From positions 1 to 42,085 of the IMG/VR virus record IMGVR_UViG_3300037421_000080: 42,085 nucleotides of DNA. One strand, given 5' to 3'. Below the pieces are notes generated by a model, which made no database searches, was not told where the DNA came from, and saw nothing but the letters and a program-made list of their open reading frames with translations. Below are positions 11,135-41,666 of the stretch, piece by piece; the first letter of the stretch is position 1; each line of letters begins with the position of its first letter. Source of the stretch: a virus. Made by a program: the position numbers and the translations under genes.

Positions 11135-12058
11135 GTGACTGTACCCCCTCTGACCTTTTTGTACTACAGTTTTCGGCCCGGCGGGATCGACCTCCTTGTG
11201 AAATCCCTTGCATCCCAGACGATGAACAGCTTCGAGCTGATCGTGGTGGACGACTACCCTGGCCGGGTGGAGCGGGGCCTGGCCCGCAAGTACGCCGAGG
11301 AGGCAGGGATCAAGGTCCGTTGGTGGGGCGTCTCCAAGCCCAAGAGCTACCCAGAGACCAAGTGCGGCGGAGTCAACGCTGTCAACACAGGATTGATCCA
11401 CGCTTGCACACCGATCGTCTGCTTTGTGAATGATTACACCTTCTTGGCTCCAGACGCCGTCCAGATTGTGAAGAACATATTTGTGGTTGAGTGGCTTATG
11501 GGGGCGAGGTTCCTCCTGCATGGGGCATCTATGATATACGACTCTGATAAGCCTCTAACCCAGGACGATGTAGATACGTGGCCCGGTGGTCAGGATCCAA
11601 ACATCCGTCCCATGCGTCCCCATGTGCCCAAGGAGTTCGAGGGCTATTACTTCATGGGGCAGATAGGGTTCTTCGAGTTGATCAACGGATTCGACGAGAG
11701 GTCGGACGACTGCGGCCCCTGGAACCTGACCAGCCTCATCGCCCAGGCAAAGCTGACGGGCTGGGGCCTGAGAGTCTGCGATTCCCTCGTGATCCACATG
11801 ATCGACCACCGGAGATGGGGCGGATGGTCCCCTGGCCTGGCCACCAAGGACTCGATGTGGCGCACTGACGACCATCATACCTCCGGGGAAGCTGCCGAGG
11901 AGCCAGAGTGGCTGGCCCAGTCTCCTAATCCCTACAACCTTGCGGATCTTCGGATGTTGTCCAGGACCAAGGCGGATCTGGCGGAGGGCAGGGATGTGTA
12001 TCCCCATCTGAGGCTAGCGTATGCCGGGCTATCCTCCGAATGCAAGGAGGCTTTGTGA
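11135..12058 (+). CDS. Family 2-like glycosyltransferase
   Basis: A 307-residue GT-A glycosyltransferase. N-terminal signature: LTFLYYSFRPGGIDLLVKSL, then LIVVDDYPG (nucleotide-binding acidic residues), then a middle block CGGVNAVNTGLIHA and CFVNDYTF, where ND takes the place of the DxD metal motif. The later EGYYFMGQIGFFELINGFDE block is a typical acceptor-side element. It probably adds a sugar to a surface glycan or a virion glycan. Start codon GTG at 11135. The stop overlaps the GTG of the broken methyltransferase fragment (GTGA), showing that fragment once followed in the same operon. Confidence 0.78.
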   Translation: MTVPPLTFLYYSFRPGGIDLLVKSLASQTMNSFELIVVDDYPGRVERGLARKYAEEAGIKVRWWGVSKPKSYPETKCGGVNAVNTGLIHACTPIVCFVNDYTFLAPDAVQIVKNIFVVEWLMGARFLLHGASMIYDSDKPLTQDDVDTWPGGQDPNIRPMRPHVPKEFEGYYFMGQIGFFELINGFDERSDDCGPWNLTSLIAQAKLTGWGLRVCDSLVIHMIDHRRWGGWSPGLATKDSMWRTDDHHTSGEAAEEPEWLAQSPNPYNLADLRMLSRTKADLAEGRDVYPHLRLAYAGLSSECKEAL

Positions 12059-12168
12059 AAGGCGCCTGCTGGGCAGCCAACGGCGGAGACATGGAGTTCC
12101 TGACCCTCCAGGAGACCTTCCGCAAGTGCTATGACGGCGATCCGCACTGGAACCGCATCTTCGAGTGA
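12055..12168 (+). pseudogene. Native 5' end of the methyltransferase gene, cut off by the TnpB element
   Basis: A 37-codon fragment (GTG start, TGA stop at 12166) that aligns with the N-terminus of the intact methyltransferase at 13356: 22 of 37 aligned residues are identical, including CYDGDPHW and the final FE. Its GC content is 62% (69 of 111 bases), like the downstream body of that gene (61% over the first 108 bases from 13470) and unlike the 44% replacement N-terminus. The fragment therefore looks like the original gene start, with the insertion point directly after its TTCGAG at 12160-12165. Confidence 0.75.
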
Positions 12169-12300
12169 TTACTCTCTAGCCGAAGCTAGAGCTTTTAGGG
12201 ATTGAACCCACAGCTTGTAATCCCAAGCTGAGTATGTTGCAGGCAGCATTATGGTCCCTGTCATAGCTAAGCTCGCAGCACTCGCAGGTGAAAGTTCTGA
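12169..12300 (-). ncRNA. Candidate reRNA (omega RNA) of TnpB; guide points into the host gene
   Basis: TnpB guide RNAs derive from the 3' end of tnpB and run through the right end, with the guide supplied by flanking DNA. Here the tnpB stop lies inside a perfect 7-bp hairpin with a UUCG loop on the minus strand (12174-12191), as expected for the scaffold's last hairpin. Sequence left of 12168, read on the minus strand, would be the guide and is the complement of the native methyltransferase codons for NRIFE and upstream. The 5' limit of the RNA is a guess. Confidence 0.5.
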
Positions 12301-13303
12301 TGGAAACAGGCATCTTCTGCCTGTATCCACAATTGTGGCAAGTCTGCGAAGTGTAAGCGGGGTTCACTCTCACAATAGTTCTACCAGCTTCTACCGCTTT
12401 GTAGAACAGAAGAGTGAAGAACAGAGACCAAGCTACGTCGTCAATACTTTTCGAGAATTTCCTGACCTTTCTCATTCGGTTGACTTGAAGATCCTCAACG
12501 GCGATGAAACCAAAATCGTTGATGATTCTTCGAGAAGTCTGATGAGCAAAGTTTTGTCTGCGAAAGCGAATTCGTTCATAAATTCGAGAGACTGGTTTTC
12601 TAAGCTTTTTCCTCTCCGGAGTTCCTTTCTTCACTTTTTCAAGCTTTTTCTGGGCTTTGGCAAGTTCTTTTTCGTCCGTTTTAAAAAACCTCTTCCTCTT
12701 AATCTTTTCTCCGTTCGAGAGGGCGGCAAAGCAATTCAGTCCTACGTCAATGCCTACTTGTTCTTTGCTCTTTGGAAGGGGTTTCGGTACGGACAGATCG
12801 CAAGTGAGATTGGCGTACCATTTGCCGGTGGAGGATCGGCGGATAGTACAAGTTTTGAGATCACCTCTCAACTTTCTATGCAGATTTATTTTAACATCTC
12901 CAACATTGTGAAGTTGAAGAACACCCCCTTCGAGATAACAACCCCTTGGAGCTTGTGGGAACGTCATGCTGTCGTAGCGGCTAAACTGTTTGAATCGGGG
13001 ATACCCAGGCTTCTCCCCCGCTTTGGTTCTTCGGAAGAACGCTTTGAATGCAAGATCGACACGAAGACAGACATTCTGGAGACATTGTGCAAAAACTGTT
13101 TTTAGAGAGGGTCGTCGTTCTTTCAAAGAAGGAAGGGTTTTGTCCTGATCGTAGCGATTGATCCCTTTACCTGTAGCTTTGTACGTATCCCTTCGCTCTG
13201 CAAGAAAGTGGTTGTAGAGCCAACGACACTCCTCCAGCTGGGCATCGAGCTTCTTCCTTTGGCTCTTGGTGGGATACAGACGATATTGAAAGGTTTTGAG
13301 CAT
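12176..13303 (-). CDS. tnpB: TnpB RNA-guided nuclease (IS605/OrfB family)
   Basis: A 375-residue TnpB. N-terminal MLKTFQYRLYPTKSQ with the usual helix-turn-helix. RuvC residues are all present: Asp in GIDVGL, Glu in AVEDLQV, and Asp in DRDHNAACNI. The zinc ribbon is intact with CHNCG and CECC. Full length and apparently active. Known members cut DNA next to a transposon-associated motif using an RNA from their own 3' end. It is antisense to the operon, sits between two versions of the same methyltransferase 5' end, and has lower GC than flanking genes. Confidence 0.92.
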   Translation of the reverse strand: MLKTFQYRLYPTKSQRKKLDAQLEECRWLYNHFLAERRDTYKATGKGINRYDQDKTLPSLKERRPSLKTVFAQCLQNVCLRVDLAFKAFFRRTKAGEKPGYPRFKQFSRYDSMTFPQAPRGCYLEGGVLQLHNVGDVKINLHRKLRGDLKTCTIRRSSTGKWYANLTCDLSVPKPLPKSKEQVGIDVGLNCFAALSNGEKIKRKRFFKTDEKELAKAQKKLEKVKKGTPERKKLRKPVSRIYERIRFRRQNFAHQTSRRIINDFGFIAVEDLQVNRMRKVRKFSKSIDDVAWSLFFTLLFYKAVEAGRTIVRVNPAYTSQTCHNCGYRQKMPVSIRTFTCECCELSYDRDHNAACNILSLGLQAVGSIPKSSSFG

Positions 13304-13355
13304 TCTTATATAGTAACTAAATGGATCTGTTAGATAAAGAGCAAAAGTATTAGCT

Positions 13356-13469
13356 ATGAAAAGTTGTTGTTGGGTGAGTGAAGGTGGTGGAGATTCGGAA
13401 TTCGTAAGGCTTCAAAAAGCAATGATGCAGTGTTATGATGGTGACCCACATTGGAGTAGATGCTTCGAG
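13356..13469 (+). other. Recoded 5' segment of the methyltransferase gene
   Basis: GC is 44% (47 of the first 108 bases) against about 61-62% on both native sides. In the CYDGDPHW stretch, six of eight codons differ from the native copy only at the third base (the TAT and TGG codons are the same). Identity at the junction is limited to TTCGAG. This would keep the enzyme working while removing the sequence the TnpB guide should match. Confidence 0.7.
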
Positions 13470-14090
13470 TACCCCTGGATGGTGCGGAACGGGAACTTCC
13501 GATTGACAGATGAGGTACTGGACGCGGGTGGTGGGCAGGCATCGGGCCAGCTGTTTCTCGCGGCCTATGCAGGTAAGGTTGTCAACGTAGACAACGACGT
13601 GGCCAGCCTTGCCAAGACGAAGGAGATGTACGCTGGCTTCAAGAAGTTCCAGAAGGTGGAGCTGGTGGAGGGAGATCTGAAAGATCTGTCCATGTTCCCG
13701 GACGGCAGGTTCGACAAGGTGGTCTGTATCTCGGTGCTGGAACACGATCCGGATTACATGTTGATATTGAAGGAATTGTGGCGGGTATTGAAACCGGGCG
13801 GTAGGCTGCTGGTGACGATGGACGTGGCAACCTTCTCCGCCAGCGATCATTTGATTACCGACAGGGAAGCAGCCAGGATTTTGTGCCTGTTCGGCATGGA
13901 TACATTGCCTCCTATCCCGGAGGATGCCATCGTCTGCCAGGCTCCGTCGGACGCTTCTCCCGAAGGTATCCTTCTTGCCTACGGCATCCCGAACAGGGGA
14001 AAGATGATCCGGAAGATCTTCGAGACAGAAGTCGATGTTGGCTTCTACTGCCTGAAGGTTTTGTGCTTCTTCGCGGACAAGATGGAGTAA
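13356..14090 (+). CDS. Class I SAM methyltransferase with replaced N-terminus
   Basis: A 244-residue methyltransferase: motif I VLDAGGGQASGQ, the acidic end of strand 2 in VVNVDND, then FDKVVCISVLEHDPDY and LWRVLKPGGRLLVTMD. The first 38 codons (to 13469) are AT-rich with codon choice unlike the rest and nearly every wobble base different from the broken copy at 12055, while the protein motif CYDGDPHW is kept. From TACCCC at 13470 the gene returns to local composition. So the gene is a chimera made when the TnpB element arrived. The substrate is unknown; it is part of the glycan operon. Confidence 0.82.
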   Translation: MKSCCWVSEGGGDSEFVRLQKAMMQCYDGDPHWSRCFEYPWMVRNGNFRLTDEVLDAGGGQASGQLFLAAYAGKVVNVDNDVASLAKTKEMYAGFKKFQKVELVEGDLKDLSMFPDGRFDKVVCISVLEHDPDYMLILKELWRVLKPGGRLLVTMDVATFSASDHLITDREAARILCLFGMDTLPPIPEDAIVCQAPSDASPEGILLAYGIPNRGKMIRKIFETEVDVGFYCLKVLCFFADKME

Positions 14091-14557: not shown

Positions 14558-16387
14558 ATGATCGACATCAACAAGAAGGAAGGCCAGAAGATCCTTGAGC
14601 TGGGCGGCGGTATGAACCGACACCCTGCTTCAGATGTAAACCTCGACTGCCGTGCCGGCCCCGGAGTGGACATCGTTTGCGACCTTAACAAGGGCCCTCT
14701 TCCCTTCCTGGATGCAAGCTTCGATGCGGTGTTATGTGTCTATGCGCTGGAACATTGCTCGTACCGACGTGTGCCCGCGATTCTTCGAGAGACCTGGCGG
14801 GTGTTGAAGCCGGAGGGGAAAGCGATATTCCTCGTCCCCAACACAGAGGCTCAGATTGAATGGATCAAGACCCATCCGGAGGGCTGGGACAAGGAGAGTT
14901 TTTTCGAGTCGGCAAGCAAGGTACTGATGGGGAGCCAGGACTACTCAGAAAATTCGCATCGGATTTACCTAAGTCCTTCTCTGGTCTTCGACCTGTTCAA
15001 AGACGCGGGCTTCCAGTCGATCCAGGTCGCGGCTGCTGGTGAGAGGCAGACTGACCTCTCCATCGTCGCATCCAAGCCGGATTGGGTCAATCCGCCGATC
15101 CCCATCGAGCCTGCCCAGCCGATCAGAGAAGCAGAGCCTCAACCCACGGTGGTGGAGCAGGAATCTGCCATCTCCGGGATTCCCACGGAGCAGATTTTCG
15201 ACCGCCATTACTTCACGGGCGGAGGACGATGCGGCGGGTACGCGAGGGAGGGGATGCGGGATTTCGCCTGCCACGAGACGACGGCTCGATATGTGCTAGT
15301 CCGTAAGCCCGAAAGCGTCCTGGAAATTGGATGCGGGCGTGGTTATATCATGAAGAGACTGCAAGACGCAGGGGTTCGATGCACTGGACTGGAGGTCTCG
15401 AAACATTGCAATTTGACTGCTGCCGCGAGGGGGATAATCCAGCACGATATCCTGAAAACTCCGTGGCCTCTGACCTTCCGGAAGGATGGTGGGGAGGATC
15501 ACCGCTGGGATCTCTGCCTCTCTGTCGCCACTCTAGAACACATCCCCGAATCCGCACTCCCAGCTATCCTCGGCGAGATGAGTCGCTGCACGAAGCGAGG
15601 CCTGCACGGAGTGGATTTCGGCCAGAAAGATGATGGCTTCGACAAGTCACACATCACGCTCAAACCCCAGAAGTGGTGGAGGGCCCTGTTCGATCACTAC
15701 GGTCTCCAGTCCCATGAGATCGTGGACAAGGAGTCCCTGGAGGCTGGCAATCTGCCTCCCGAGGTCCTGGCGGGCGACGGCAAGATCAAGCTGAATTGCG
15801 GCTGCGGGATGAACATGTTCCACCACGGCTGGACCAACGTCGACCTCAACAAGGACCTGGAGCAGTTCTCTGGACCGCAGGGCTACCGCTTCCTCCGTAG
15901 GGACCTGAGACGAGGCATCCCCTATGCCACGGGGACGGTGGACCTGATCTTCGCCAGCCTCTTCCTGGAGCATCTAAGCTATCGGGAGGGAGAGACGTTC
16001 CTCAAGGAGTGCAGGCGGGTGTTGAAGCCGGATGGAGCCTTGCGGATTGTGGTGCCGAACGCGAAGGCACTGATTGATCACTATGTCTACGGTGGTGACT
16101 ACGAGTATGGCACGGAGCCTCCCAGGAACAGGCTCTTTGACTTCGACGAGATGGACGAAGCTTGCTCTAACCATTCTACTCCCGTTGGCAAGCTCCATGC
16201 TCTCCTCTGCGAAGGGCATGCCTCGATCTATGACTACGATCTTCTCGCTGGGATGATTTCGGAAGCGAAGTTGAAGCCAGAAGTGAGATCCTTTCGGGAG
16301 GGGCACTCCCAGATCCTCCACGAGACGGTGGAGTCGTACCAGGGCGGGACATCTCTGTTTGTGGACGCAGTTCCAGTCGTGGGGTAA
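14558..16387 (+). CDS. Fusion of three SAM methyltransferase domains
   Basis: A 609-residue protein with three Rossmann methyltransferase units. Unit 1 (residues ~5-170): KILELGGGMNRHP, FDAVLCVYALEHCSY, WRVLKPEGKAIFLVPN. Unit 2 (~205-385): opens with RHYFTGGGRCGGY, then VLEIGCGRGYIMKRL and LSVATLEHIPES. Unit 3 (~400-609): KLNCGCGMNMFHHGWTNVDL, IFASLFLEHLSYREG, RRVLKPDGALRIVVPN. Units 1 and 3 are of the same predicted-methyltransferase type (motif I plus TNVDL/DVNLD), so the gene may come from duplication with a different unit inserted between. A proline-rich linker (~170-205) separates 1 and 2. It closes the operon; a promoter region follows. Confidence 0.82.
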   Translation: MIDINKKEGQKILELGGGMNRHPASDVNLDCRAGPGVDIVCDLNKGPLPFLDASFDAVLCVYALEHCSYRRVPAILRETWRVLKPEGKAIFLVPNTEAQIEWIKTHPEGWDKESFFESASKVLMGSQDYSENSHRIYLSPSLVFDLFKDAGFQSIQVAAAGERQTDLSIVASKPDWVNPPIPIEPAQPIREAEPQPTVVEQESAISGIPTEQIFDRHYFTGGGRCGGYAREGMRDFACHETTARYVLVRKPESVLEIGCGRGYIMKRLQDAGVRCTGLEVSKHCNLTAAARGIIQHDILKTPWPLTFRKDGGEDHRWDLCLSVATLEHIPESALPAILGEMSRCTKRGLHGVDFGQKDDGFDKSHITLKPQKWWRALFDHYGLQSHEIVDKESLEAGNLPPEVLAGDGKIKLNCGCGMNMFHHGWTNVDLNKDLEQFSGPQGYRFLRRDLRRGIPYATGTVDLIFASLFLEHLSYREGETFLKECRRVLKPDGALRIVVPNAKALIDHYVYGGDYEYGTEPPRNRLFDFDEMDEACSNHSTPVGKLHALLCEGHASIYDYDLLAGMISEAKLKPEVRSFREGHSQILHETVESYQGGTSLFVDAVPVVG

Positions 16388-16637: not shown

Positions 16638-17291
16638 ATGGCTCTCAAACCAGAAACCGGGATTCCGATAGACGACAATTGGGAGGATATCCTAGCTGAT
16701 TTTGTTGATTTCACCTTGAGGTATCTCAAAAATAAATACCTTGTCGTTGTCTGGATGTACCTATTTACGTGCCATCAAAACGGCAGAAAAGAAGTGAGCT
16801 TAAGTGATATCGCTGAAAAGTGCGGCGACTGTAAAATGAAAGTGGTTGATAAAGCGATTAAGACTTTGGAGGGAATGGGGTTATTGATGACCAATCGAAT
16901 CGGGAGCGTGATCGACAATTACCATTTATATCCCACCAAGCCTAGAGTTGAATCAGAAATCCCCGAAAAAGGAAAAGTCAGGGAATGCCCGGTTGATGCG
17001 AGAAACCGAAAGATACAATCTGGTTGGGTCTATCTATTCCGAGCTGAAAATGGTCTGGTGAAGATAGGGAAAACTGTAAACCATCCGTGTTACCGGCTTA
17101 AAGCAATTAACGCTGCTTCTCCTATTCAATCAGTCCTCATCCACAAAATCAAAACCAATCACATCACTTGGCTGGAGAGTAAACTCCATCGGAGATACGC
17201 GGATAAAAGGGTTCGAGGGGAATGGTTTGCTCTGGAGGATAAGAACATCCGTTATCTAAGCCGATTCGACAATTTGGATGCTAAAGTTTGA
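16638..17291 (+). CDS. Winged-helix protein with GIY-YIG-superfamily (T5orf172/Mug113) domain
   Basis: A 217-residue protein. Residues ~15-95 look like a winged helix (SLSDIAEKCGDCKMKVVDKA then TLEGMGLLM). Residues ~128-217 match the T5orf172/Mug113 domain of the GIY-YIG nuclease superfamily: GWVYLFRAENGLVKIGKT, the SPIQSVLIHKIKT strand, LESKLHRRYADKRVRGEWFAL with the conserved Glu, Arg and Trp-Phe. Related domains are found in phage antirepressors and homing-type nucleases. AT-rich compared with the operons on both sides and placed alone behind its own structured leader, like the HNH genes in this window, so a mobile origin is likely. Confidence 0.75.
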   Translation: MALKPETGIPIDDNWEDILADFVDFTLRYLKNKYLVVVWMYLFTCHQNGRKEVSLSDIAEKCGDCKMKVVDKAIKTLEGMGLLMTNRIGSVIDNYHLYPTKPRVESEIPEKGKVRECPVDARNRKIQSGWVYLFRAENGLVKIGKTVNHPCYRLKAINAASPIQSVLIHKIKTNHITWLESKLHRRYADKRVRGEWFALEDKNIRYLSRFDNLDAKV

Positions 17292-18196: not shown

Positions 18197-18229
18197 AAGG
18201 GGGAGTGGAATAAACTACCACTCCCCCTT
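18197..18229. terminator. Strong (possibly bidirectional) terminator
   Basis: A perfect 12-bp stem, AAGGGGGAGTGG (18197) with CCACTCCCCCTT (18218), nine-base loop, followed by ATTTT. It separates the structural gene from the convergent HNH gene, whose stop codon it touches. Confidence 0.85.
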
Positions 18230-18857
18230 ATTTTACATGGCTCCAAGCCCCGCCTTTTATAACGTTCCAAGATCCCGTTACTCCCAATTCTTTATCTATG
18301 TGGCTGATGTAATTATATTTACCAGACGCCCACATTCTACGGATTGCGCGGACTTGATCGTCGGTTAATTTAGCGTTTGGGTTTTTTACCCCTTGGACTT
18401 TCTTGGAATTGGTTCGGCCGGTTCTCTTTTTATCGGCCATGTTATCAGCGTTCGTTCCCCATCGCAGATTTAGAACGTCATTGTTTATGGGGTCGTCATC
18501 CCAGTGGAGACCACACGATTCGGGCGTTGGCTTTGGGCCGATGAATGACAATAGTACCACATGATGTATTAAAATTCCTCTTGGCGGGTATTTAGGTCCT
18601 TGTTCCTGATGAGGGTTCAGAGTTAGGTACTTACTTCTCCTTTTGAAAGTCATCTTCTGCCATTTTTCACCAAGATGGTATTTCGTTCCAGCTCCATTAC
18701 CTTTTCCCCTTTTCCCTCTGAACCATTTTGTCCATACAGATCCATCCCAGCCAACACGGTATCCAGGCATGTTGAGAAAACCCAACATTCGGTAGACTAT
18801 GTTGTTTTCGAGATCGTAGCGAAAAGCGAGACAGCCTTTACTATAATAACTGGACAT
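18228..18857 (-). CDS. Free-standing NUMOD4-HNH homing endonuclease
   Basis: A 209-residue HNH_3-type nuclease. A NUMOD4-like N-terminus (YRVGWDGSVWTKW) is followed by the HNH core: IHHVVLLSFIG, then GLHWDDDPINNDVLNLRWGT, where the second His and Asn are the usual positions and NLRWGT is diagnostic. The C-terminal AKLTDDQVRAIRRM plus KELGVTG is the DNA-binding helix set. Minus strand, with its own promoter (18924-18952) and AGGAGG before the ATG. Free-standing nucleases of this type spread by cutting phage DNA that lacks them. AT-rich compared with its neighbours. Confidence 0.88.
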   Translation of the reverse strand: MSSYYSKGCLAFRYDLENNIVYRMLGFLNMPGYRVGWDGSVWTKWFRGKRGKGNGAGTKYHLGEKWQKMTFKRRSKYLTLNPHQEQGPKYPPRGILIHHVVLLSFIGPKPTPESCGLHWDDDPINNDVLNLRWGTNADNMADKKRTGRTNSKKVQGVKNPNAKLTDDQVRAIRRMWASGKYNYISHIDKELGVTGSWNVIKGGAWSHVK

Positions 18858-31881: not shown

Positions 31882-32541
31882 TCATTTTCTTTTTGTCCAA
31901 AGTTGATTACCCGCTTGGAATCCAGCGGGTCGTATTTTTGCCATTACTTTGGGTTGACAGTGGCGGAAGGTTTTGCCGTTGAGGATCATTTTGACGTTTC
32001 CGCCGGTTATTCCAAAGACCTTGGCCACTTCTTCGCAGGTCATACCGGAATCATACAAGCGATGGATCTTGGGGATGTCAGAATCTTTCAATTTCGCCCA
32101 TCCCATAGTTTCGCCGTGGCACCAAGTACCATGTCGGATTCTGTCATCCGCGTTCTCTTGGTAAGTCCCCCACCGCAAATTCTTCAAGTGATTGTTACTC
32201 GGGTTTCCATCCAAGTGTCGGCATTCCATCCCTTCCGGACAAGGACCAACGAAAGCTTCCAAGACGAGAGTGTGGATTTGACAAACACGGCTCTTCCCGT
32301 GCTTGCTGATTTTGACGGAGAAATAGCCACGTTCGACTTCTCGAAGTTTCATCATTCTTCCCGGAATGAAACGACGATTGGTTCCGATCTTGACCCACTT
32401 GCTGAGAGACTTCAACCTGCCCCAATTCGAGACTCGGTAAAAACCAATGAAGTTGGGAAGATCCCTCCAGTATTCGTTTCTACCGTCGGGATGGGTTTGA
32501 ACTTTTTGTCGGAGAAGGAATCGGGTAGAATTGTCGTACAT
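31882..32541 (-). CDS. Free-standing NUMOD4-HNH homing endonuclease
   Basis: A 219-residue HNH_3-type nuclease. NUMOD4 (YRVSNWGRLKSLSKWVK) precedes the HNH core: QIHTLVLEAFVGPCPEGM, RHLDGNPSNNHLKNLRWGT, then ENADDRIRHGT. The C-terminal WAKLKDSDIPKIHRLYDSG and EVAKVFGITGGNVKMI form the DNA-binding helices. Same family as the gene at 18228, sharing the layout of promoter and leader but with low sequence identity, so they are separate acquisitions. Minus strand, inserted in front of the prohead protease gene. Confidence 0.88.
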   Translation of the reverse strand: MYDNSTRFLLRQKVQTHPDGRNEYWRDLPNFIGFYRVSNWGRLKSLSKWVKIGTNRRFIPGRMMKLREVERGYFSVKISKHGKSRVCQIHTLVLEAFVGPCPEGMECRHLDGNPSNNHLKNLRWGTYQENADDRIRHGTWCHGETMGWAKLKDSDIPKIHRLYDSGMTCEEVAKVFGITGGNVKMILNGKTFRHCQPKVMAKIRPAGFQAGNQLWTKRK

Positions 32542-39564: not shown

Positions 39565-40281
39565 GTGTTACTGAGCGACCTCAGAGAAGTGAAGACGATG
39601 CTGGAAATCCCGGAGGGGGATACCTCTGAGGACCGCAAGCTTCTCTTGTTGATCGAGCAGTGCTCTAGCTGGATCGAGAGCTACACCAATCGTGACTTCT
39701 TCTATAAGTACCGAACACAATACTATCGCGGAACGAACAGTCAGAAAATCCTCCTCCGCAACCGTCCTGTCTATGCGGATCCGTCTGTTCCTGTCCAGAC
39801 TCCTTCCCTTCCCAATACAGTTCCGCAGGTATTCGTGGACAGCGGAGCTAACTATGGCCAAGCTCCGGGCGCCTTCACTGGATCTGGAGCCCAGCTGACC
39901 TACGGCACAGACTTCTGCCTCCAGATAGACCAGGACGACGGGATCAGCTCTCGCTCTGCCATCCTGCTCCGGGTGAACGATTATTGGAGCAGGCCGGCAG
40001 TGAGGTCGGCGGGCCTGCTGTCGCCCTACTTCGGGCCGGATCTAGGAAGTATTAAGGTTTCTTACTGGGCAGGCTATCAAATAGATAATCTACCCTCCCT
40101 GGTCCGAGCAGCTATGAACCTGCTGGTGTCCAGGTTGAGGTGGGTGATCCCAACAGGACACGAGCTCTCAGGTGAGGGATATGAGGATCGGAGCGTGTCC
40201 CTCATTACTAGCGAAAAGTTGCACCTCATGGCGATCGCGGGTCCCATGATCTCCGCTGGATTCCGTAACTGGAACTTTTGA
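39565..40281 (+). CDS. Head-tail connector protein (gp6-like)
   Basis: A 238-residue protein. The N-terminal LLSDLREVKTMLEIPEGDTSEDRKL plus LLIEQCSSWIESYTNRDF is the classic start of phage head-tail connector (DNA packaging / gp6-type) proteins, which form the ring under the portal. The middle has a long insertion with VPVQTPSLPNTVPQVFVD. The end (YQIDNLPSLVRAAMNLLV) matches the helical part of the family. GTG start after a GGGAGGG stretch; the stop overlaps the next frame by four bases. Confidence 0.78.
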   Translation: MLLSDLREVKTMLEIPEGDTSEDRKLLLLIEQCSSWIESYTNRDFFYKYRTQYYRGTNSQKILLRNRPVYADPSVPVQTPSLPNTVPQVFVDSGANYGQAPGAFTGSGAQLTYGTDFCLQIDQDDGISSRSAILLRVNDYWSRPAVRSAGLLSPYFGPDLGSIKVSYWAGYQIDNLPSLVRAAMNLLVSRLRWVIPTGHELSGEGYEDRSVSLITSEKLHLMAIAGPMISAGFRNWNF

Positions 40282-41666
40282 TTGATATGGTCCTCAATAA
40301 GAACACCACCCGTCTCTTTCATCGCACTCTTTATTGTACTGAGCTTGTCGCCGTCACACTCCTGAAGAGAGGCGACAATCAGGCCCAGGGCCGGATCACG
40401 AACTACACGTTGTATGGGTGTATGCTGCCGGGAACGACGGTCGAAGGGAGAATTTCAGGAGCATCAAAATCATTCTACTCTGGGGAAGCCGTCAAACTTC
40501 GCACAGTATCTAAGAGCATAGATTTGAACTGTACAATCAATCATCCCGTACTTACCCCGCATGGTTTCATCGCGGCGGGCTTGATCAAGCCAGGAACCTA
40601 TCTGCTTTGCCACAGAGGTGTTGAAGGAAGTTCCACAAACATACAGAACAGACCAACCAAGATCGAGGATGTATTTGAGTCGTTTGCGAAAGTGGGGAAT
40701 GGCTTTGCTGCCCGCACTCCTAGTTCTTTCGATTTCCACGGCGATGGGGAATCCATCCAGGGCAAGATCAACATTGTACGGCCCAATTGGGTATTGATGA
40801 AGCATGGAGTACCCCAGATCGTTCAGAAGATTAGCGACTTCGACTTCTTGGGGTTTGATCTTGGCTTGCTTCTCAAAAACTCGTTGGGCAAATCCTACAC
40901 ATTGCTCAAACGTGTTTTTTCTCCCTTTTGTCATCACGTGGGCTTTTCTGACTTGATTAGATCTCTGTTCTGGGGTCATTCGATCCCACTTGAACTTTTC
41001 AGCTTCGCTTCGACTTCTCAAACGGATTCCCCCTTCCTGAAGAATCCGCCGAATAACATCACCTTCAATGAAGAATTCTCTGGCCAAGGAAGCAACCGAT
41101 TCTCCGGAAGTGTAACGACCAATTACTTCCCTGAATGGAACATGGGAGTTGAATCTCTTGAACTTGATTACGCCAGCTTCGGCTCTGGATCGAAGTTTAA
41201 CACCGTTCGTCCGGAGCCTGTGGCGGATAGTTCCGGAGGGGATACCGAATTCTTGAGACAGCTGCTTGGGGGATTTCCCGGCGAGGTATTCGCGGATAAG
41301 GTCGCGAGTATTGATCATTTTCATTACGATGGCCCTGTGTACGACTTGGAGACACCAGTTGGCTATTATACCGCTTCTACAGTAGGAAGCAAGGTCTTCG
41401 TTTCAAACTGCCGGAGAGGCCAGATTGTCAAGACAGGCCAGACTCTCCAGGGCGATATGACCTCCGACCACCGGGCTCCCTGGCACATCCCCCGCAGCGA
41501 ACTGGATCGGGTGGGGGTGCAATGGCTCAATCCGCTAGACCGCATCATCGACCCAGACGGGAACACCTGGCAGCCGGAGGGTAGTACGACGATGACCGAG
41601 AAGCTGTTCAAGAACTATTACGTGGTGGATTGCTATCTGAGGAATCCTCCGAGGATTGTTGTGTGA
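40278..41666 (+). CDS. Head-tail adaptor/joining protein interrupted by an intein
   Basis: A 462-codon frame. Residues 1-47 and 378-462 are the extein. After removal of the intein the join reads TLYGCRRGQIVKTGQ, then DHRAPWHIPRSELDRVG and DGNTWQPEGSTTMT, a recognisable small phage head-tail adaptor protein of ~130 residues. The TTG start at 40278 overlaps the connector stop (TTGA); ATG 40287 is an alternative. The long middle part of the frame, from the intein's block B to block F, is the antisense of a convincing endonuclease gene. Confidence 0.8.
   Translation: MIDMVLNKNTTRLFHRTLYCTELVAVTLLKRGDNQAQGRITNYTLYGCMLPGTTVEGRISGASKSFYSGEAVKLRTVSKSIDLNCTINHPVLTPHGFIAAGLIKPGTYLLCHRGVEGSSTNIQNRPTKIEDVFESFAKVGNGFAARTPSSFDFHGDGESIQGKINIVRPNWVLMKHGVPQIVQKISDFDFLGFDLGLLLKNSLGKSYTLLKRVFSPFCHHVGFSDLIRSLFWGHSIPLELFSFASTSQTDSPFLKNPPNNITFNEEFSGQGSNRFSGSVTTNYFPEWNMGVESLELDYASFGSGSKFNTVRPEPVADSSGGDTEFLRQLLGGFPGEVFADKVASIDHFHYDGPVYDLETPVGYYTASTVGSKVFVSNCRRGQIVKTGQTLQGDMTSDHRAPWHIPRSELDRVGVQWLNPLDRIIDPDGNTWQPEGSTTMTEKLFKNYYVVDCYLRNPPRIVV
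40419..41408 (+). mobile_element. Intein with an antisense endonuclease gene
   Basis: A 330-residue intein. Block A: CMLPGTTVEG with Cys1; block B: NCTINHPVLTPHGF (T-x-x-HP is varied to TINHP); block F: HYDGPVYDLETPVGYYTAS; block G: VFVSN then Cys. The penultimate residue is Ser, not His, and Asn and +1 Cys are present, so splicing is plausible but atypical. Between blocks B and F the + frame has no nuclease motif; instead the minus strand encodes one (40470-41324). The + frame remains stop-free across it. Confidence 0.82.
40470..41324 (-). CDS. Antisense EDxHD/Vsr-like homing endonuclease inside the intein
   Basis: A 284-residue protein on the strand opposite the intein. Two N-terminal helix-turn-helix repeats (EYLAGKSPKQLSQEFGIPSG and RYTSGESVASLAREFFIEG, each ending R-x-R-SRxEA) are followed by a PD-(D/E)XK nuclease of the EDxHD/Vsr type: Glu in QEVEVANLLNDLGY, Asp in GPYNVDLALDG, and AVEIER, then GWSVLYVCG. 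Its codons share the register of the + frame (its third base is the + first base), so any TTA, CTA or TCA codon would stop the intein; none occurs. The start codon complements the His codon at 41322 in block F; the ribosome-binding site is weak. Confidence 0.82.
   Translation of the reverse strand: MKMINTRDLIREYLAGKSPKQLSQEFGIPSGTIRHRLRTNGVKLRSRAEAGVIKFKRFNSHVPFREVIGRYTSGESVASLAREFFIEGDVIRRILQEGGIRLRSRSEAEKFKWDRMTPEQRSNQVRKAHVMTKGRKNTFEQCVGFAQRVFEKQAKIKPQEVEVANLLNDLGYSMLHQYPIGPYNVDLALDGFPIAVEIERTRSAGSKAIPHFRKRLKYILDLGWSVLYVCGTSFNTSVAKQIGSWLDQARRDETMRGKYGMIDCTVQIYALRYCAKFDGFPRVE

Follow-up and report, generated by a model that had tools for sequence, protein, structure and literature searches.

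A TnpB element inside a phage methyltransferase gene carries a divergent copy of the gene's start: a candidate natural cleave-and-rescue element

TnpB is encoded by one of the commonest genes of prokaryotes and is the ancestor of Cas12. The stretch of DNA analysed here (the window, 42,085 bases) is the first 42 kb of a phage record of 136,935 bases, IMG/VR record IMGVR_UViG_3300037421_000080. Within it, a tnpB gene on the minus strand sits inside a methyltransferase gene of a glycan-type cassette, and a start of that gene is found on either side of tnpB. The persistence of TnpB-only elements that have no transposase is the wider question on which this locus bears, and the locus, together with others like it in phages, suggests homing drives that repair their host gene.

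The native start of the methyltransferase gene occupies 12055-12165 on the plus strand (37 codons). It opens with a GTG at 12055 that overlaps the stop of the upstream gene, encodes V(M)KGACWAANGGDMEFLTLQETFRKCYDGDPHWNRIFE, and ends in TTCGAG (12160-12165); its last ~20 bases encode the predicted guide. The stranded fragment is closed by a TGA (12166-12168, plus strand) supplied by the tip of the element's right end, which reads TCAC on the minus strand. The tnpB gene (12176-13303, minus strand, 375 aa) is followed by a divergent intergenic stretch of 52 bp with 27% GC (13304-13355) and then by a second, low-GC start of 38 codons (13356-13469, plus strand), which begins with an ATG at 13356 and is distinguished by its GC content at third codon positions (GC3). 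At another TTCGAG (13464-13469), this start joins the native gene body (13470-14087), and the two make up a gene for an S-adenosylmethionine (SAM)-dependent methyltransferase of 244 aa (13356-14090, plus strand; Methyltransf_11, 1.6e-17). A single gene body is present, running to 14090, and it is read from the second start. The element itself spans 12165-13468, with its right end at 12165 and its left end at 13468 (boundary 13468/13469). The initial annotation had placed a TnpB element between two starts of one gene, and this arrangement was found as described.

The TnpB protein matches Pfam OrfB_IS605 (1e-24) and Cas12f1-like_TNB (3e-22), and also the structure of ISDra2 TnpB (8bf8, E=1e-62). 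Its catalytic RuvC residues, D186, E270 and D350, fall in the invariant columns of the family, and the four cysteines of the zinc ribbon are present. Relatives were collected from IMG/VR, first 13 that are 48-63% identical, then 79 and 80 more hits on partly shared contigs. A covariance model was built from the right ends of 35 relatives, with the window left out; among them, 15 of the 20 scaffold pairs covary by double changes. The model matches the window with 84.8 bits (E=4e-19) and finds one site in the whole 137-kb genome, 12271-12165, the match ending exactly at 12165. This segment (12165-12271, minus strand), which overlaps the 3' end of tnpB, is a canonical TnpB guide-RNA scaffold (omegaRNA or reRNA, the right-end element RNA), with three covarying hairpins and a terminal pairing. 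Two near-identical elements at different sites (L020/L021) fix the right end as TCAC, and this boundary is common to almost all relatives. The same pair, also listed as L033/L034, occupies two unrelated sites in different phages and fixes both ends as well as a TTTAT transposon-associated motif (TAM).

In ISDra2 TnpB, the guide begins directly after the right end (PMC8612924). As the scaffold ends at 12165, the guide in the window is therefore predicted to read TCGAAGATGCGGTTCCAG..., the complement of native codons ~31-37 of the methyltransferase gene. The predicted segment, TCGAAGATGCGGTTCCAGTG, lies at 12145-12164 on the minus strand with its first base at 12164, and the step from TCAC to guide is conserved in the family. 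The earlier proposal that the guide would be the complement of the native codons is supported to this extent by sequence comparison, through the family-wide right-end boundary and the scaffold that stops at 12165. At the left boundary, the minus strand reads GGTAC/TCGAAG (the slash marking the boundary). The predicted TAM, 5'-GGTAC-3' (13469-13473, minus strand), has the TAY core common to the family, as do the hairpin-bearing relatives, which sit behind TTTAC or TTTAT.

The native and the second start find each other in a search of the phage's own genome with E=3.8e-12, and their anchored amino-acid score is 115, the 99.9th percentile of guide-swapped controls being 27, so the similarity is not due to chance. 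The two N-termini have 21 residues and the start codon in common, with one indel of a single residue. At the codon level there are 8 identical codons, 13 synonymous differences and 16 non-synonymous ones; "mostly synonymous", as the changes had been called, overstates the case in the window and holds for a parallel locus, L126, described below.

The composition of the two starts tells them apart. A change-point in overall GC within the methyltransferase gene was not significant, and GC3 was used in its place. The GC3 change-point falls at 13460, about three codons from the boundary (p<1/5000, with 0 of 5000 shuffles as high), and such a shift at the boundary is what a graft predicts. The native start (GC3 32/37) does not differ from the gene body (p=0.14), the GC content of which is 55% (GC3 74%) instead of the 61% first reported. 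The second start (14/38) differs from the body (153/206, p=1.5e-5) and from the native start (p=1.3e-5), and is indistinguishable from tnpB (p=0.23). This pattern indicates that the second start arrived or evolved with the element, and that the stranded start belongs to the body. Since its GC3 matches that of tnpB, the low-GC start may have come from a diverged relative instead of being the product of selective recoding.

Two other histories can be drawn up for such a locus. In one, TnpB truncated the first of two tandem methyltransferase genes, and the second happens to begin 52 bp past the element. Phages do carry tandem paralogous methyltransferases, further methyltransferase domains lie in the window at 14558-16387, and no relative speaks directly against this history; but the codon composition of the second gene shifts exactly at the point of truncation of the first, a point that coincides with the guide start behind a TAM, and we consider this history improbable. 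In the other, which we rate slightly higher but still unlikely, the element and an adjoining gene start came together from a low-GC phage by recombination at CTTCGAG, the cutting by TnpB having no part in it and the rescue being a by-product. The 7-bp stretch shared at the joint fits this history, as does the composition of graft and tnpB, which are like each other and unlike the phage. However, it offers no reason for the right end joining the native gene at precisely the homologous position. Since homing could itself have been what caused the recombination, this account is partly a rival for the history of the element, not for its function.

The second start is a poor match to the predicted guide where matching should count. 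The graft repeats the first six guide bases directly behind the TAY TAM (positions 1-6 match), and 5 mismatches follow within positions 1-12 and 6 within 1-16. In ISDra2 TnpB, double mismatches in guide positions 1-12 abolish cleavage (PMC10097598). Judged by its 5 mismatches in 12, the linked gene copy, which has an intact open reading frame (ORF), is predicted to escape recognition by the guide.

The arrangement recurs in other phages. In 75 distinct loci of phages, each with its right end defined, we looked for repeats of the guide's first bases directly behind TAY or TTT, no more than 200 bp upstream of tnpB, and swapped guides between loci as a control. At least 5 guide-start bases are repeated at 8 of the 75 loci, the window being one of the eight, where 1.07 were expected (permutation p<1/5000). 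With a strict TAY there are 6 loci (0.59 expected), and four loci repeat 8 bases (0.05 expected); neither count was reached in 5000 permutations. None of the 8 loci has a left-end hairpin, which is present in 35 of the 67 others (p=0.006). Two further similarities were dropped, that of L077 as a chance match of a ribosome-binding site and that of L091 as not located at the guide start.

The clearest parallel is L126 (also listed as L076), where the last ten codons and the stop of a 381-aa gene are restored with the peptide VISYRDKWSA unchanged. The stranded native end reads GTG ATT AGT TAT AGA GAT AAA TGG TCG GCG TAA and the restored end GTG ATA AGC TAT AGG GAC AAG TGG AGT GCA TGA; that is, the stop and seven of the ten sense codons are spelled differently but synonymously. 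In L154, the TnpB element lies near 2966, at the fourth codon of a large terminase gene; its predicted guide covers the terminase start, and the start is re-supplied, with MAVSIGAQE becoming MSIGAQE. The ATG is re-supplied with a diverged copy of its leader in L171, and the ribosome-binding site before a downstream start in L028 and L044. That the same coincidence is seen at several loci speaks against a neighbouring paralogue, which moreover cannot explain the case at a 3' end (L126). A passive chimera does not account for repeated occurrence behind TAY TAMs combined with a lost left-end hairpin. In the TnpB tree, the guide-start repeat needs at least 5 changes. The window groups with L028 and L029 in a supported clade whose members lie in three unrelated genes, and the sister elements L126 and L127 (91% identical TnpB) occupy unrelated sites and have left ends of different extent, as if these had been rebuilt at each site. 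L126 looks more like recoding under selection; in the window, amino acids of the rescue part have changed as well, and there selective recoding and import from a diverged homologue are equally likely.

Elements with left-end hairpins and no rescue copy were found in the Thermus phages TSP4, T72 and phiLo and in the archaeal virus vir525, and the guide-start repeat is absent in five other isolate phages (of Alicyclobacillus, Pseudomonas, Geobacillus, Microcystis and Enterococcus). At L030/L031 (also L017/L018), an in-frame TAG stands at codon ~42 of tnpB and the similarity goes on beyond it (61% identity over residues 3-375); either the gene is broken or the phage reads TAG as an amino acid.

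The palindromes that mark the two ends of IS200/IS605 insertion sequences (IS) are reduced to one here. The right-end hairpin is present, and none was detected between 13304 and 13468, the 52-bp intergenic stretch included. Y1 TnpA was not found in the 137-kb record, the control genomes being positive, and a copy in the host is possible. With no left palindrome and no TnpA seen, the element fails the two-ended definition of IS200/IS605. These same two absences could be those of a dead remnant, i.e., an IS200/IS605 insertion with a deleted left end, a gene repaired by chance and an inactive TnpB. But the frame of tnpB is unbroken for 375 codons and retains every RuvC residue, and the scaffold is full-length with its covarying pairs kept, and so we regard a remnant as very improbable, the least probable of the histories set out here.

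What can be read from sequence is the boundaries, the guide, the scaffold, the graft with its mismatches, the recurrence elsewhere and a genome without TnpA. From these we infer expression, cutting, homing and a benefit of the element, and we consider it likely (a probability of roughly 0.7) that this is a TnpB-only homing element lodged in a phage methyltransferase gene and carrying a rescue sequence of its own. A transcript that runs through tnpB and the right end would yield a guide RNA complementary to native codons ~31-37. In a co-infecting phage with an uninterrupted gene, TnpB would bind the TAM GGTAC together with the guide match and make its cut ~15-20 bp inside the gene, and recombination or repair from the element-bearing genome would copy the element into the cut phage, with homology on both sides (the native start and the upstream gene on one, the gene body on the other). 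Two features would make the element-bearing genome immune: its native match does not adjoin the TAM, and the copy next to the TAM is divergent, with 5 of the 12 essential guide positions mismatched. The left end of the element is an alternative gene start and not a hairpin, so the insertion leaves the phage its gene. Guide-directed cutting with copying of the element is known TnpB behaviour, and TnpB has been reported to drive the spread of IS in plasmids as a gene drive (PMC11870625); the rescue end would be the new part. A genome that lacks TnpA and holds several other homing-type genes makes homing a plausible way of life. The initial annotation had called the locus natural cleave-and-rescue. 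In support of this are the predicted guide, the intact RuvC residues, a start that restores the ORF and mismatches the guide in its essential part, and the recurrence at other loci, while cleavage, copying by homing and the selective reason for recoding keep the standing of proposals.

Several observations weigh against the homing-and-rescue reading. The graft differs from the native start in amino acids at the 16 codons noted above, for which selection for synonymous recoding alone is insufficient. The TAM of the window, GGTAC, differs from the commoner TTTAY of the family. A left-end hairpin also went undetected in 32 loci in which no rescue copy was recognised, and two of the eight loci are weak individually: L029, where a short ORF has its end re-supplied, and L055, a further N-terminus case. 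Finally, an uninterrupted relative of the methyltransferase gene was not found in IMG/VR, GTDB, GenBank phages or 11 capsid relatives. The methyltransferase and the upstream glycosyltransferase were searched in IMG/VR, and the motif YDGDPHW in IMG/VR and GTDB, where every match was unrelated; the gene is absent from the 11 capsid relatives and the GenBank phages searched. Relatives of the L076 and L171 genes and of the L154 terminase gave distant or no matches and no empty site. The empty site is therefore a prediction, and no uninterrupted relatives with two tandem paralogous methyltransferases turned up in these collections.

The closest relatives in kind are the tnpB-only (IS1341 type) members of IS200/IS605 and the plasmid TnpB drive (PMC8612924, PMC11870625), with which the element has in common TnpB, the right-end scaffold, the order TAM, element, guide, and the intact allele as target. 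It differs from them in that a divergent copy of one end of the interrupted gene stands in place of the left-end hairpin, and in that it lies in a phage without TnpA in its genome, inside a gene that stays whole. In logic, it resembles the yeast WHO elements beside FBA1 (PMC7282813), in which a nuclease gene stands between a resistant full-length target gene and a target-gene fragment, the resistance coming from sequence differences in the replaced gene end. However, the WHO nuclease is a zinc-finger protein derived from an intein and acts at the 3' end of FBA1, whereas the nuclease here would be RNA-guided, with the stranded native fragment supplying its guide, and the gene end is placed at the element's own transposon end; the protein is TnpB, and the comparison is an analogy and not one of family. 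Synthetic Cleave-and-Rescue and home-and-rescue drives (PMC7951863, PMC7968924) likewise pair an RNA-guided nuclease with a recoded rescue of the target gene. In contrast to them, the present case is natural, belongs to a prokaryotic virus, and has its guide encoded by the flank rather than by a separate cassette. With free-standing phage homing endonucleases and those of inteins and introns (PMC10448857, PMC11620839), it would have in common the spread into element-less co-infecting phages and co-conversion of the flanks, but here specificity would lie in RNA, and rescue in a gene copy rather than in splicing or an intergenic position. No Rfam match and no Hint domain in TnpB were found; the gene is restored at the DNA level, not by an intein or self-splicing intron. 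In the open-access literature, to which the search was limited, TnpB elements with rescue copies were not found described.

If the reading is right, the locus would be the natural equivalent of the engineered cleave-and-rescue drives and an RNA-guided analogue of WHO elements. For each of the eight loci, the reading predicts exactly the TAM, the guide and the sensitive and resistant alleles, and it would account for patchwork gene ends in phage genomes. The odds seem to us about even that these loci make up a phage class of transposase-independent, RNA-guided homing elements, acting as natural cleave-and-rescue drives, in which the left end has repeatedly been replaced by a guide-resistant copy of the broken part, be it a coding end, a start codon, a ribosome-binding site or a stop.

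The phage is rich in homing-type nucleases. At 8-2149, an intein (Pfam Intein_splicing 9e-12, Hint) that has an HNH-like insert splits a radical SAM protein. A T5orf172 (GIY-YIG-like) gene and two HNH_3 genes, one with NUMOD4, are found at 16638-17291, 18228-18857 and 31882-32541. Towards the end of the window, a long intein-like ORF (40278-41666, plus strand) encloses an antisense ORF (40470-41324, minus strand) with helix-turn-helix (HTH) and MTES_1575 (restriction-endonuclease-like) domains, possibly a nuclease nested antisense in an intein-like region.
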